From Cyanosarcina radialis HA8281-LM2 (lineage in GTDB: Bacteria > Cyanobacteriota > Cyanobacteriia > Cyanobacteriales > CCAP-1448): a stretch of 64,000 nt of DNA. Position 1 is the stretch's first letter, and the number at the start of each line of letters is the position of its first letter. The translations under genes were made by a program, and so were the position numbers. The DNA is taken from the NCBI GenBank assembly GCA_019359615.1, contig JAHHHA010000003.1:248001-312000 (forward strand), written 5' to 3'. The notes beneath the pieces were generated by a model. That model was not told the DNA's origin and did no database searches. It saw only the letters and a list, made by a program, of their open reading frames with translations. Below, one piece after another: positions 9,243 to 46,924 of the stretch.

Positions 9243-10115
9243 TTAAAGTCGATCGAGCCAATTTAGAATGATGGGATTTACCAGATCTGGGCGTTCGTCG
9301 TGAGGACAATGCCCCGTATTGGGGATAGCCACAAATTCCACAGGTTGACCTTTGGCGTTCAATTCTTGGAAGATGTTTTCTGCACTTACGGGCATCCAAG
9401 GATCTGCTGCTCCCCACAGAACTAAAAGGGGTCGCTTCACGTCGGGCAATAGCTCGGCAATACCGCGACCGGGAGGTGCAGAGATAATCGAGGCAAACAC
9501 TTTGTGAGCGCCAGGATCGCAGGAAGGAGCGTAAATTAAATCCACTAGCTCGTCGGTCACGGCTTCCTGGTGACGATAAACCTGGAGTAGAGTCCGGCGG
9601 ATGCGCTCTTTCTGGCGAATGCGATCGAATACAATCGGACCGAATAAATTAGAAGTCACCAATCGCTTAAATCCATTCATCATCAATCTCACAGGTAGAT
9701 TGAGTTCGCGAGGGCGATGGCTCAATCCCCCAGCACAGTTAATCAAAACTGCCCCCGCTGCTATTTCTGGATGGTCGGCTACTACGATTAAACTCAGTAA
9801 TGCCCCAATCGAGTTGCCGATGAATACGGTTGGTTCTTGAATGTGGAATTCCCAAAAATCCTTCACCAATTGTTGCCACAAATCGAAACTGTATTTCAAT
9901 GGTGGCTTCGCGGAACCGCCAAATCCTAGTAAATCTATCGCCCATACCTGGTAGCCGCTAGCAGCTAGCGCCGGAATATTCTGCCGCCAGTGTCCGATAG
10001 ATGCGCCAAAACCATGAATTAGCAACAATGGTCGGCCAGTTCCCTTAACCGTGTATTCAATCTGATGTCCTTGCCAAGTCCACTTCAGTCTTTCCCAGGT
10101 GCTTGTAGTTATCAT
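9243..10115 (-). CDS. Alpha/beta-fold hydrolase
   Basis: 290 residues from ATG 10115 (MITTSTWERLKWTWQGHQIEY). Features of the alpha/beta hydrolase fold: LLLIHGFGASIGHWR with the oxyanion-hole HGFG, DLLGFGGSAKP, the nucleophile elbow GNSIG with its Ser, the acid in WGAADPWMP, and the catalytic His in NTGHCPHDERP close to the C-terminus. The spacing is as in cyanobacterial hydrolases related to haloalkane-dehalogenase/epoxide-hydrolase-like and pheophytinase-like enzymes; the substrate cannot be read from sequence. The frame is open upstream to 10295, but those 60 residues are poorly structured and include a GGTTGGGTT-type repeat, so I exclude them. Its 5' region faces the next gene on the same strand. 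Confidence 0.88.
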   Translation of the reverse strand: MITTSTWERLKWTWQGHQIEYTVKGTGRPLLLIHGFGASIGHWRQNIPALAASGYQVWAIDLLGFGGSAKPPLKYSFDLWQQLVKDFWEFHIQEPTVFIGNSIGALLSLIVVADHPEIAAGAVLINCAGGLSHRPRELNLPVRLMMNGFKRLVTSNLFGPIVFDRIRQKERIRRTLLQVYRHQEAVTDELVDLIYAPSCDPGAHKVFASIISAPPGRGIAELLPDVKRPLLVLWGAADPWMPVSAENIFQELNAKGQPVEFVAIPNTGHCPHDERPDLVNPIILNWLDRL

Positions 10116-10308
10116 CTGGCCGCTAGTCACGATCGTTATTGTTAAGTTTCTTAAAGTTCTATTATACCGATTCTCAACCAGGTCTAGCTTCCAGGCTGTT
10201 GGTTGGGTTGAACGGTAGCGAAACCCAACATCAACAAAGAGTTTTAATTGGGTTTCTAAATCTTGTTTGACGATCGAGGTAGTCTTTTCAACCAAATCTA
10301 GTGCGAAG

Positions 10309-10770
10309 TTAAGACTGAAATTGAGGTTTTTCTACCCGGACGTTAGCAGGCAAAACTGTGGAATTAGAAACCTTATTAAATATTCTAGATTCAGGAGAAA
10401 AAGCAGTTGGTCTGGGTTTGCCGGGGGCCAAGTTATCAGTTTCTACGCGGAGTTTGTTATTGTCTGTAAACTCAAAAATCGTCAACACTTTTTGCCGACC
10501 GTGAATTACATCTAGTTGCATCGGTTTAGTTTGAGTATTAAGCTGATATTTCAGGATAAATACTTTTGCCCGTCGATCGCTAGGAATCATAAATAATTGA
10601 TTGTCAGGTGTGAATACAAATTTTATTTGTTGTTCTTCGATCGTTGTTTCCCAAGTTCCGAGTAATTGCTTTTCAGCAGATGGAGTTTGGGTATAGCCAG
10701 GTAGGGAAACTATAGAGACGGCGATCGCCATACTTCCCATTAAACTTAAGAACGGTGTTTGGTAGCTCAT
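10309..10770 (-). CDS. Secreted lipocalin-like hypothetical protein, paralogue 1
   Basis: 153 residues with an N-terminal signal peptide (FLSLMGSMAIAVSIVSLPGYTQT, cut probably after the small residues near 25-30). A beta-rich domain follows: LLGTWETTI, FVFTPDNQLFMI, KYQLNTQTKPMQLDV, VLTIFEFTDNNKLRVE, PTAFSPES. The LLGTW opening and alternating strands resemble small lipocalin-like domains found in secreted cyanobacterial proteins. It is a clear paralogue of the N-terminal half of the next gene upstream (LLGTWQATV ... TIFELTDDNKLRIE). It ends after the beta domain with no second domain. Function unknown. Confidence 0.75.
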   Translation of the reverse strand: MSYQTPFLSLMGSMAIAVSIVSLPGYTQTPSAEKQLLGTWETTIEEQQIKFVFTPDNQLFMIPSDRRAKVFILKYQLNTQTKPMQLDVIHGRQKVLTIFEFTDNNKLRVETDNLAPGKPRPTAFSPESRIFNKVSNSTVLPANVRVEKPQFQS

Positions 10771-10833
10771 GATAATTTTCCTGATTAATACGAAATAGGT
10801 ATTTTGTTTTCTTTAGATGTGAATCGATCGCGA

Positions 10834-10909
10834 CCAGATAGAGAAATTATAGAAATGGCGATCGCTATCTTTCCAATCCCAGTAAAAACAGATGTTTGAT
10901 AGTTCGCGA
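10834..10909 (-). pseudogene. Decayed third copy of the signal-peptide region of the neighbouring paralogues
   Basis: The 10834-10909 stretch aligns base for base with 10697-10770 (the start of paralogue 1), sharing CCAG(A/G)TAG(A/G)GAAA(C/T)TATAGA and a GATCGC core. The ATG has become GCG and the rest of the gene is gone. It lies between the two intact paralogues. Confidence 0.65.
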
Positions 10910-10965
10910 TCGTTTCCCCCAATTATAAAATCTCGATCTCAAGGCAAAAGCTACTCAAGCAGAGA

Positions 10966-11811
10966 TTAAAACTGAACTTCAGAATATCCAGAAGGACAAG
11001 TTGGTGGTGCTTTAGGTATCACTTCTAACTGAGGTTTTGGTACAGTTTTAGTAGGTTCGTTGCTTTCACAAACTACCGAACTCATGACAAATTTACCTTG
11101 CGAATTTTTATATCGATAAACAATGCCGACATAACTTTTCAATCCATCGATTTTAGCTATGCCTGTTGCCATCGTTTTTTCTGTTTCTGTCACTACCAAT
11201 TTGTAAGAATAATTATTGTTAGTTTCGCTTGCATTTCCCGAACCGCTGAGAATGCTTAACCCTATTCGTTCTAAGCTGTCACCAAAGGTGCTATTTTTCT
11301 TCCGATAAATTGTTTGAGCTTTGTTAATTCCCCTCATGTCATATTTAGCTTCATCTTCATAAATATCCTCATCTCTTTGTACTCGCGTATCAGGAGGCAA
11401 TGATGTAGAATCAGAAACTTTTTGAAATACTACTGACTCAGAAGAAAAACTTTTTGGCCTGGTCTTTCCAGGTGCTACCTCTTCAAGTTCTATGCGTAAT
11501 TTGTTATCATCAGTTAATTCAAAAATGGTCAATACTTTTTCTTGACGATGAGTTAGATCTAATTGCATTGGTTTGGTTTGTGTATTAATTTGATATTTCA
11601 CTGGGATGGCAGGTGAATCTCCCTCAATGAGAAATAATTGGTTGTCAGGTGCAAATACAAAAGTTCCCCGTATTTCTCGGACCGTCGCTTGCCAAGTTCC
11701 GAGTAATTTCTGTTCGACAGAAGGGGCGGGGTTAGAGCTAGATGGGGAAACTATAGAGATGGCGATCGCCGTACCACAGATGAGACTTAAAAAAGAGGTT
11801 TGACAATTCAT
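10966..11811 (-). CDS. Secreted protein: lipocalin-like domain fused to type IV pilin-like G/H domain, paralogue 2
   Basis: 281 residues. Signal peptide (FLSLICGTAIAISIVSPSS), then the same beta domain as paralogue 1 (LLGTWQATVREIRG, FVFAPDNQLFLI, KYQINTQTKPMQLDL, VLTIFELTDDNKLRIE; residues about 35-140). From about residue 160 it changes to a pilin-like G/H domain: GINKAQTIYRKKNSTFGDSLERIGL, YSYKLVVTETEKT, GLKSYVGIVYRY, and a C-terminal Cys in MSSVVCESNEP followed by Pro-rich PKPQLEVIPKAPPTC. Type IV pilin-like G/H family proteins normally have this domain after a pilin-type N-terminus. Here a secretory signal and a different beta domain replace it, so assembly into a pilus is doubtful. Envelope or periplasmic location is inferred. 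Confidence 0.78.
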   Translation of the reverse strand: MNCQTSFLSLICGTAIAISIVSPSSSNPAPSVEQKLLGTWQATVREIRGTFVFAPDNQLFLIEGDSPAIPVKYQINTQTKPMQLDLTHRQEKVLTIFELTDDNKLRIELEEVAPGKTRPKSFSSESVVFQKVSDSTSLPPDTRVQRDEDIYEDEAKYDMRGINKAQTIYRKKNSTFGDSLERIGLSILSGSGNASETNNNYSYKLVVTETEKTMATGIAKIDGLKSYVGIVYRYKNSQGKFVMSSVVCESNEPTKTVPKPQLEVIPKAPPTCPSGYSEVQF

Positions 11812-12123
11812 AACAAGCTGCCTGAAATCTAGTTGAAATTATAATTGTTTCCTTAAAGATAAAGCAACAACAGCTTTGACTAAAGCCTCGATCGAGTTCC
11901 TCTGGTGATTTTCTGCTTTGGTTGGCGATCGCGTTTTTCTCAGATTTAGTCTATCTGGCTGGGGAAACTATGTCGATCGCGATCTTTATTGTTAAGTTTT
12001 TTTCAACTTTTAGTTTCTGTGGTAAAGTTCTCTGGCATATCGAGGACGAACTAAGAAACATAGATACGCTTCTAGCGTCTTAAGCAGTTATTTAGTTATT
12101 CAGTGTCGAGGTGACACAGAGCT
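11812..12123. other. Intergenic region between divergent secreted-protein genes
   Basis: These 312 bases separate the leftward pilin-like gene and the rightward SLH gene and must contain both promoters. A short GGGGAAACTAT word followed by GATCGCGATC at about 11958-11980 resembles the 5' ends of the paralogues to the left and may be another trace. No gene seen. Confidence 0.5.
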
Positions 12124-13653
12124 ATGAACCATAATTCTCTTGCCTTACTAGGTAGCCTGCTAGCTACTACCAGCATCGCGATCGCCAATCCCTTACCTTT
12201 GACGGCCAGCACCTCTACCTCGAACTCAGCAGGTCTGGCCGATAGAACTGGACAGCAAGTTTTACTGGCTCAAGCTTCTAACCCAATAGAGGCCATACAA
12301 GCGGTCGGTAAAGCCGTACTCAAAGATGCAAGCGATCGCACGGGCATCCCCCAATCAGAACTCAACATTGTTGAAGTCAAACAAGAAACTTGGCCCGATA
12401 GTTGCTTGGGCTTAGAAACGGCCGGAACCAGTTGCGCCCAAGCCACAGTTCCAGGGTGGAAAATGGTCGTCAGCGGCGGCGAACAACGCTTGGTTTATCG
12501 CACCAACCTTTCTGGAAGTGCCGTTAAGTTAGATGCAGCCGCCAGTCAGATTAAAAACGCTCAAACTACCCCCAGACTGTCAACTCAAGCCAGTCCATCT
12601 CCAGCGACGACTTCGCCACCACCAAGTATTGCCTCTCAACCTTCTTCCTCCTCCCCGGCTGCTCGGCCTCCAGCCACCACGCCTCAAATAACTACACCAG
12701 ATGCCCCCTTGCCGAACCCCAATCCCGCTCAGATGCCCTTGCGATTGGTGAGAATTCCCCAACCACAGGGAGTTAGCCCGCGCAGCGAAAGACCCCAGCC
12801 ATCGCCAGCGGTCAAACCCAGTCCTAGCAATACCACCAGTCAGGCCAACTCTAGTAACCCTGCTAGAACTCCAACTGTAAAACCCAGTCCCAGCAACACC
12901 ACTACCCAAGCCAACTCTAGTAACGCCACTAGAACCCCAACTGTCAAGCCCAGTCCTAGTAACACGACCACAGCGAGAACCAACTCTAGTACCCCCACCA
13001 GAACGGCAGCCAACCAGCGCCAAACCTCCAGACCGCAGGCAACTAGCCCTCGCAAAATCAAGCTAGAATTTACCGATGTTCCAGATAACTACTGGGCTAG
13101 AGATTTCATTGCCGAACTGGTTCAAAGAGACATCATTAAAGGTAATAAAGGTCGCTTTCGCCCTGACGATCCGATGACGCGGGGCGAGTTCTCTGCCTTG
13201 ATCGCTCTGGCATTCAACAAGAAACCAATTATTCGTCCAGTCATAGATTTTGCTGACATCAAGCCGGAGCGATGGGAGCATTCATATCTGTTGGATGCTT
13301 ATCAGAGAGGCTTTTTTGAGGTTGGTCCTAATAAAGAGATCAATCCCAACCAAAAAATTTCTCGCCTGGGGGTTATAGTTGCCCTCACCAGAGGATTGCA
13401 GTATTCTCCTGATGGCTCGCCAGAAACCATTTTGCAAGTCTACCGCGATGCTGCTACCATCCCCAGTAGTTTTCGCATCATAGTAGCGGCTGCAACTGAG
13501 AAGAACTTGGTAGTTAACTATCCCAACGTTAAGCTGCTCAAACCGAATAAAGGCGCTACCCGCGCTGAAGTAGCTGCTTTTATCTATCAGGCCATGGCCA
13601 GCGATGGCAATCTCGCTACCATTCCTTCACCATATATAGTGACGGCAAAATAG
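12124..13653 (+). CDS. SLH-domain surface protein with Pro/Ser/Thr-rich repeat linker
   Basis: 509 residues. The signal peptide covers residues 1-30 (LALLGSLLATTSIAIANPLPLTA). Residues about 55-135 form a small cyanobacterial domain with a conserved core ELNIVEVKQETWPDSCLGL, a Cys pair, VPGWKMVV, and LVYRTN. Residues about 140-310 are a low-complexity Pro/Ser/Thr linker containing three tandem 22-residue repeats. From residue 313 come S-layer-homology repeats: FTDVPDNYWARDFIAEL...GRFRPDDPMTRGEF, then ADIKPERWEHSYLLDA, then a third with ATRAEVAAFIYQAM. SLH modules bind pyruvylated wall polymers in bacteria, and cyanobacteria use them in cell-surface and porin proteins. It is probably envelope-anchored, with the N-terminal domain displayed. 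The preceding gene is divergent. Confidence 0.87.
   Translation: MNHNSLALLGSLLATTSIAIANPLPLTASTSTSNSAGLADRTGQQVLLAQASNPIEAIQAVGKAVLKDASDRTGIPQSELNIVEVKQETWPDSCLGLETAGTSCAQATVPGWKMVVSGGEQRLVYRTNLSGSAVKLDAAASQIKNAQTTPRLSTQASPSPATTSPPPSIASQPSSSSPAARPPATTPQITTPDAPLPNPNPAQMPLRLVRIPQPQGVSPRSERPQPSPAVKPSPSNTTSQANSSNPARTPTVKPSPSNTTTQANSSNATRTPTVKPSPSNTTTARTNSSTPTRTAANQRQTSRPQATSPRKIKLEFTDVPDNYWARDFIAELVQRDIIKGNKGRFRPDDPMTRGEFSALIALAFNKKPIIRPVIDFADIKPERWEHSYLLDAYQRGFFEVGPNKEINPNQKISRLGVIVALTRGLQYSPDGSPETILQVYRDAATIPSSFRIIVAAATEKNLVVNYPNVKLLKPNKGATRAEVAAFIYQAMASDGNLATIPSPYIVTAK
12811..13005 (+). repeat. Three 66-bp tandem repeats coding the linker
   Basis: Units at 12811-12876, 12877-12942 and 12943-13005 each encode VKPSPSNTT...N-S-S...R-T-P-T, 21-22 residues. 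The third is slightly diverged and ends in RTA. This is likely a length-variable linker. Confidence 0.8.
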
Positions 13654-46093: not shown

Positions 46094-46768
46094 TTATAGA
46101 GTTTCTGGATCTATTCCTAGCAATCGCAATCGTGCCTCCAGAGTTTGCACCCGTTGTTGTTCTTTCTGAATGCGTTCTTCAGGAGTGAGGTATCTTTTCC
46201 CTTCCTCGTCATACCAATAGAGCCATTCTCGCTCTATTCCCAGATAAGTTCCCCGTTCCGATCCAATAGCTAAATCAATCTCTGGGAGCCAGACTGGATT
46301 TCCTTCCTGCAATATATAGCTACCATTGACTAAGCGGTGTACTTCCAATTTAGGTTTGCGGCGACGGCGGGGAGAATAGATGACGTAGTACGACACCCCC
46401 ATTTCTTCGTATTCATGCTTTTTTGTGGTGTATTCTCCTCGATAGGTTTGAGACACTACTTCTAGCACTAAAATCGGGGTAACGTTTTCTTCCCACAGGG
46501 TATAACTGAGGCGCAATTCCTCGTCAAATACTCGATCGACTCCCAAACTCAAGAAGCCATCTGGGACTATAGGCGGTTCTTTGGGGTCGTAATATATCGC
46601 CATATCGACCCCAAAGAACCAATCCATCCGTTCTGCCCAGATTAAAGCTAGGATGACTTTAAGCATCCCAGGAATTAGGTCTTGAAGTTCGTTATCCACG
46701 GGGGTATCGTCAGAATCAGGGAGTTCTTCAGCGGAGGGCCAAGCTTTTTGAGGATTGTACTCAAACAT
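46094..46768 (-). CDS. Uma2-family (DUF820) protein
   Basis: 224 residues. Uma2 restriction-endonuclease-like fold: MDWFFGVDMAIYYDPKEPPIVPDGFLSLG (catalytic Asp in PDG), PILVLEVVSQTYRGEYTTKKHEYEEMGVSYYVIYSPRRRRKPKLEVHRL (E-V-x-S and Lys of the PD-(D/E)xK-like core), then the charged tail WYDEEGKRYLTPEERIQKEQQRVQTLEARL ending in the common cyanobacterial coiled coil. Highly multiplied family in cyanobacteria; no clear biological role or substrate. Confidence 0.9.
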   Translation of the reverse strand: MFEYNPQKAWPSAEELPDSDDTPVDNELQDLIPGMLKVILALIWAERMDWFFGVDMAIYYDPKEPPIVPDGFLSLGVDRVFDEELRLSYTLWEENVTPILVLEVVSQTYRGEYTTKKHEYEEMGVSYYVIYSPRRRRKPKLEVHRLVNGSYILQEGNPVWLPEIDLAIGSERGTYLGIEREWLYWYDEEGKRYLTPEERIQKEQQRVQTLEARLRLLGIDPETL

Positions 46769-46924
46769 AACGGTGGCGGTTACAATCGGTGCGATCGCTC
46801 TTTGAACTCCATTATCGCTAATTACTGCCTGGTCGTTAGAACTTCAGTTCGCCAAAAGCTCAGAATTATTCTTTTCTCCTTCTAAATTCTGAACTCCTGA
46901 ACTTCTGTATTCTTTCTTAAAAAT

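Follow-up and report, generated by a model that had tools for sequence, protein, structure and literature searches.

Tandem genes for probably exported lipocalin-like proteins with and without a C-terminal pilin-type head in Cyanosarcina radialis: a probable case of local amplification and head loss

Results

The window, by which we mean the whole 64,000-nucleotide stretch of the Cyanosarcina radialis HA8281-LM2 genome that was analysed, contains two related open reading frames on the minus strand. The short paralogue (153 aa, positions 10309..10770) consists of a hydrophobic leader and a lipocalin-like barrel, without a pilin domain. The long paralogue (281 aa, 10966..11811) has a hydrophobic leader and a lipocalin-like barrel followed by a C-terminal Pilin_GH domain. 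Both frames lie where a previous sequence-only reading had placed its tandem paralogues, and this designation is confirmed by the 56% identity of their first domains (N-terminal ~150 residues, BLASTP 4e-55). When the two genes were compared over 148 codons, dN was 0.29 and dS was 0.77, a ratio which suggests that their common barrel is under constraint.

PF16734 (Pilin_GH) matched residues 153-259 of the long protein with an E-value of 7.4e-20 and 71.9 bits, well over the cut-off of 28.9. By eye, neither a GFTLxE-type prepilin peptidase site nor a hydrophobic N-terminal stalk was found in this protein, whereas the prepilins encoded at C38 and C59 of the same genome do carry the prepilin site and the hydrophobic alpha1-N (again by eye). 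The long gene thus combines a pilin-like domain with a non-prepilin leader, as had been described. In common with the Pilin_GH family, it has a score over the curated cut-off, the fold of a pilin head, and a pair of conserved cysteines, but its domain follows a lipocalin-like barrel and there is no pilin stalk. For the barrel of either protein, nothing exceeded the cut-off in Pfam or NCBIfam. The best named profile was TIGR03067 (NCBIfam, Planc_TIGR03067), which matched residues 50-124 of the short protein (E 8e-5, 22.9 bits) and residues 50-122 of the long protein (E 3e-5, 24.4 bits); the cut-off is 40.15 bits, hence neither is a member by that model.

Inspection of the two leaders by eye revealed a hydrophobic core, no Lys or Arg ahead of the core, where a positive n-region is usual, and no clear AxA motif. 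Both proteins are probably secreted. The Sec leader of another G/H-family protein took eYFP to the medium of Synechococcus PCC 11901 at 58.7% (PMC13297417), a result which backs export by such leaders in general and not by the leaders of the short and long proteins. Lipoprotein anchoring was considered as a family trait and rejected, as a lipobox pattern occurred in 7 of 85 sequences and was poorly placed in several of them. A frameshifted barrel-only paralogue elsewhere in the genome (G000:C18:42514-42932, L020; the C18 copy) has a leader with the lipobox-like sequence SLAGC. Where this copy has the cysteine, the short protein has Y, the long protein S, and the remnant described below R (by eye).

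Between the two genes lies a remnant of a third copy (10799..10931, minus strand), which comprises only the leader region and the barrel start. Its start codon is gone, with GCG in place of ATG, and homology stops after ~35 codons. It is identical to the DNA of the short gene in 89 of 132 columns (67%); the alignment score was 234, compared to a shuffle maximum of 139, and none of 500 dinucleotide shuffles was as good. A profile built from three copies of the same genome also recovered it genome-wide (E 7.3e-4). The sequence-only reading had reported a signal-peptide remnant at 10834-10909. This third copy is real, but its extent is larger and reaches into the barrel start. On sequence grounds, we regard it as a dead scrap. 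Upstream of the long gene, repeat D3 (11955-11984) suggested a fourth remnant, which was rejected, as 53, 219, and 66 of 500 shuffles were as good in comparisons with the short gene, the long gene, and the remnant, respectively.

AlphaFold models, for which the input alignments had 24 and 31 rows, reached a mean pLDDT of 82.9 each. In the model of the short protein, eight antiparallel strands form a barrel (residues 38-135), and the model of the long protein has a barrel (38-133) and a pilin head (147-278). The short protein (barrel ~32-135) aligned with 4gzv at a VIA Z of 9.7 (rmsd 3.7, 95 residues aligned) and residues 146-281 of the long protein with the truncated minor pilin PilE 4noa at a VIA Z of 10.0 (rmsd 3.0, 97 residues aligned), values slightly higher than the best Z of 7-8 that the structural aligner's own note gives as typical for models without a clear match. 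Foldseek found no match to either model in the PDB at E 0.001 or better, and a sequence search of solved structures returned nothing beyond one weak PilA match (E 0.016). The barrel fold is common to the bacterial lipocalin-like structures 4gzv, 4iab, and 4i95, pallilysin (5jk2), and potempin E (8ehc), with a Z of 9.2-9.7 for the short protein; however, sequence identity to these structures is 12-17%, and their titles name no pilin-like head. A GxW motif (G38, W40) near the first barrel strand is invariant in the alignments made here, and GxW is a lipocalin/calycin signature. Two cysteines of the head occur without exception in the 24 fused proteins that were aligned. At the fold level only, the models support a lipocalin-like barrel and a minor-pilin-like head well, but not overwhelmingly. 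The name "lipocalin-like" used in the earlier reading is borne out by these models and not by any profile above cut-off.

The pair is flanked on the left by a gene that we take to be alpha/beta-hydrolase-like (9243..10115, minus strand) and on the right by a gene with a hydrophobic leader and a domain that is presumably SLH (S-layer homology-like; 12124..13653, plus strand). By tblastn, both neighbours were found in the nearest relative compared (G001:C127) and in G012:C3, where they adjoin in divergent orientation with a gap of slightly more than 100 bp, compared to ~2 kb in the window. Four loci were read in total; G003:C511 has a short hydrolase match only, at the contig end, and G015:C31 has no hydrolase match. 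Two direct repeats of family D5 are present in the window, one on the hydrolase side (10130..10152, plus strand) and one on the side of the SLH-type gene (11980..12002, plus strand). The repeat core TTATTGTTAAGTTTYTT (17 bases, including one degenerate) has no perfect match in the 6.5-Mb genome other than these two repeats, and a third place matches with one mismatch. At the uninterrupted site of G001, the intergenic stretch contains the repeat once, with one mismatch (by eye).

When the two sides in the window were joined across the repeat and aligned with the G001 intergenic stretch, the score was 123, whereas 1000 simple shuffles reached 96 at most. The interior of the insert did not match that stretch, as 64 of 1000 shuffles aligned as well. 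Neither G001:C127 nor G012:C3 carries any of the 31 barrel matches found in relatives. These sequence comparisons support the insertion of a ~1.85-kb cassette, containing the long gene, the remnant, and the short gene and bounded by a direct repeat at its ends, between the hydrolase-like and SLH-type genes. A mobile element was considered as the carrier and rejected, as inspection by eye of the stretch between the repeats showed no transposase-like open reading frame. The repeat exceeds the usual transposon target duplication in length.

In the genome of C. radialis, seven barrel matches were found, which correspond to five intact genes (the window pair, two on C21, and one on C29) and the frameshifted C18 copy in two pieces. 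The same genome encodes nine Pilin_GH domains, and the barrel-then-head order recurs in three further fused copies. Across 60 genomes, this one included, barrel genes are present in 22 and Pilin_GH in at least 59. The sequence-only reading had pointed to other cyanobacteria as the place to look for the two-domain architecture, and it was indeed found there: 25 of the 31 barrel matches outside the own genome are fused and 6 are barrel-only. Among 50 named loci, 23 are fused (e.g., in Nostoc, Komarekiella, Calothrix, Symploca, and Oscillatoria) and 27 are barrel-only, many of them from relatives of Microcoleus, Tychonema, and Leptolyngbya; these loci were collected by two peptide patterns, and the ratio is no census. 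No second barrel gene was found in their flanks (up to 4 kb per side). Tandem fused copies are present in G022 and G048. In a plasmid collection, a single protein was distantly related to the long one (28% identity, E 3e-18); it stands on a Calothrix record and is annotated as "hypothetical protein". Judged from this distribution, the fused architecture is old and occurs widely. Elsewhere in the window, a gene at positions 46097-46843 (minus strand) is 67% identical to L075:581-1291, a gene near the fused barrel gene of G001:C36.

A barrel tree was calculated from 79 rows, omitting five loci that duplicate genomes already included, two duplicate entries, and L053 and L054, whose barrels are degenerate. 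The short gene, the long gene, and the C18 copy form one group (100/93), and its sister consists of the fused genes G001_C1 and G001_C36 (99/96). Alternative orders within the trio received AU p values of 0.39-0.45, so that the head may have been lost once or twice. A tree that holds the short gene together with the 31 other barrel-only rows (C18 excepted) was rejected (AU p 2.6e-67), although this test is blunt, since those rows are not one clade. The fused or barrel-only state changes seven times on the tree, and five times when the short gene and the C18 copy are removed. Over long times, the head has therefore been gained or lost repeatedly.

For the head tree, 40 stretches were picked by choice among the matches listed, and two repeat rows and one fragment were removed. 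With 54 rows, the heads of the long gene, G001_C1, and G001_C36 were placed with true pilins (100/98), which suggested that a true pilin had been the source of a second fusion, independent of the first. With 107 rows, the head of the long gene fell into a mostly fused half (100/85), which comprises 45 of all 46 fused heads and 10 other rows. Its grouping with the G001_C1 and G001_C36 heads was weak (90/9), and the bootstrap had not settled. Joining the head of the long gene to 27 true pilins was rejected (AU p 1.5e-4). The prepilin pattern missed at least two rows that are prepilin-like (L133, L146); they were scored as "other" and are not among the 27. The idea of a second fusion was dropped after these two results.

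The DNA that follows the short gene was also compared with the head of the long gene. Matches as good were obtained in 4 of 300 simple and 20 of 500 dinucleotide shuffles, which is a hint of a lost head but not convincing. The three-copy profile continues beyond the stop of the short gene. A candidate pilin-domain remnant after the C18 copy was rejected, as 276 of 300 shuffles were as good.

Discussion

We consider it rather probable that the locus is a locally amplified small branch of an old cyanobacterial family, whose members are probably exported and consist of a lipocalin-like barrel with or without a C-terminal pilin-type head, and that it was shaped by tandem duplication and head loss. 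An ancestral fused gene would have been duplicated in tandem. One copy would then have dropped its pilin head and remained under constraint (the short gene), one would have been deleted down to its leader (the remnant), and one would have been kept complete (the long gene). The pair itself belongs to a known but little-characterised family, and the insertion of the cassette is the local part of its history.

The sequence-only reading had proposed the opposite direction, namely that the long copy gained its pilin domain. According to this explanation, the ancestor consisted of a barrel alone, and a pilin gene was the source from which the long copy newly acquired its head. Barrel-only genes are indeed common, heads were gained or lost repeatedly within the family, and the 54-row tree set the heads of the long gene and its two G001 relatives with true pilins. 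However, the larger tree shifted these heads to the mostly fused half, the AU test rejected a place for the long head among the pilins, and the sister genes in G001 are fused, so that any gain would be older than the window pair at least. We therefore regard a gain by the long gene as improbable. Since the window pair stands beside fused G001 genes in the trees, head loss by the short gene is likelier, and fusion, followed by duplication and then by head loss in the short gene, would be the most economical reading of the sequences. The "active domain shuffling" claimed previously is not supported at the locus, where sequence comparison shows the fusion to predate the pair; over longer times, the seven state changes on the barrel tree speak in its favour. 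The earlier reading had also named a counter-case, in which the two domains are always fused in relatives and the short gene is a truncation. The domains are not always fused, as shown by the 27 barrel-only loci, but the short gene does look truncated from a fused ancestor.

Two further points of this history can be explained differently. The cassette could be ancestral and could have been lost from G001 through recombination between the flanking direct repeats, an event which would yield exactly the one-copy site seen there. Since G012, which belongs to a different family, likewise has the flanking genes adjacent without the cassette, and since no barrel match in relatives was located at either site, we think that such a loss is unlikely and prefer insertion. 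As to the long protein, its head has a minor-pilin fold (the alignment with PilE described above), and, despite its unusual leader, the protein could be a genuine subunit of a pilus or pseudopilus. Yet, unlike the prepilins of the same genome, it has no GFTLxE-type site or N-terminal stalk, and a barrel of ~110 residues lies ahead of the head. We regard a role as a subunit as very unlikely.

We also propose a mode of action for the two proteins. The leaders would carry both across the inner membrane. In the periplasm or at the surface, the barrel may bind a small, probably hydrophobic ligand. The head, with a pilin fold but neither a hydrophobic stalk nor a prepilin cleavage site, would act as a docking module rather than as a pilus subunit and would attach the long form to a pilus, a pseudopilus, or the outer membrane as its partner in the envelope. 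The short form would be a freely diffusing barrel. A bolder version, which we offer as a long shot, is that such proteins are pilus-coupled ligand carriers throughout the cyanobacteria: the stalkless head would dock on the outside of the pilus or pseudopilus polymer and position the cargo barrel, and genomes would tune the proportion of docked (fused) and free (head-lost) barrels. Should docking on pili hold true, a large group of envelope proteins that have received little study would be open to testing.

In the open-licence literature, no work was found on TIGR03067 or on a cyanobacterial minor pilin with a lipocalin. Titles and the beginnings of abstracts named no barrel-head protein; for Pilin_GH, a plant paper was found, and for cyanobacterial periplasmic lipocalin-like proteins, unrelated titles. 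Within one inserted cassette, the locus would clearly illustrate how genes are amplified, lose a domain, and decay, and the uninterrupted site is available in a relative. Moreover, a Pilin_GH domain is readily taken to indicate a pilin, but it often ends a protein that is not a pilin and is probably exported. Annotation by domain name is therefore misleading.

Several other arrangements of the domain were observed. In the fused proteins L053 and L054 (G039:C6 and G012:C43), the barrel is strongly reduced in length and the leader contains a lipobox or near-lipobox. G000:C65:45972-46943 (L021) comprises two tandem genes in which Pilin_GH follows a degenerate non-prepilin N-terminus, and in L131, L132, L143, and L151 an apparent secretory leader (by eye) precedes Pilin_GH without a prepilin site. 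Pilin_GH also stands at the end of a protein that has a membrane segment and, by eye, resembles Ser/Thr kinases (G000:C45:132192-132545, L014), and L160, L156, and L161 (G004, G012, and G020) are further long proteins with a terminal Pilin_GH. The head of L014 clusters with the C65 heads near the long gene of the window, apart from the heads of L160, L156, and L161. Finally, Pilin_GH domains follow one another within a single protein in L158 (G054:C81), which has three, and in L159 (G055:C6:2057115-2058542), which has four.
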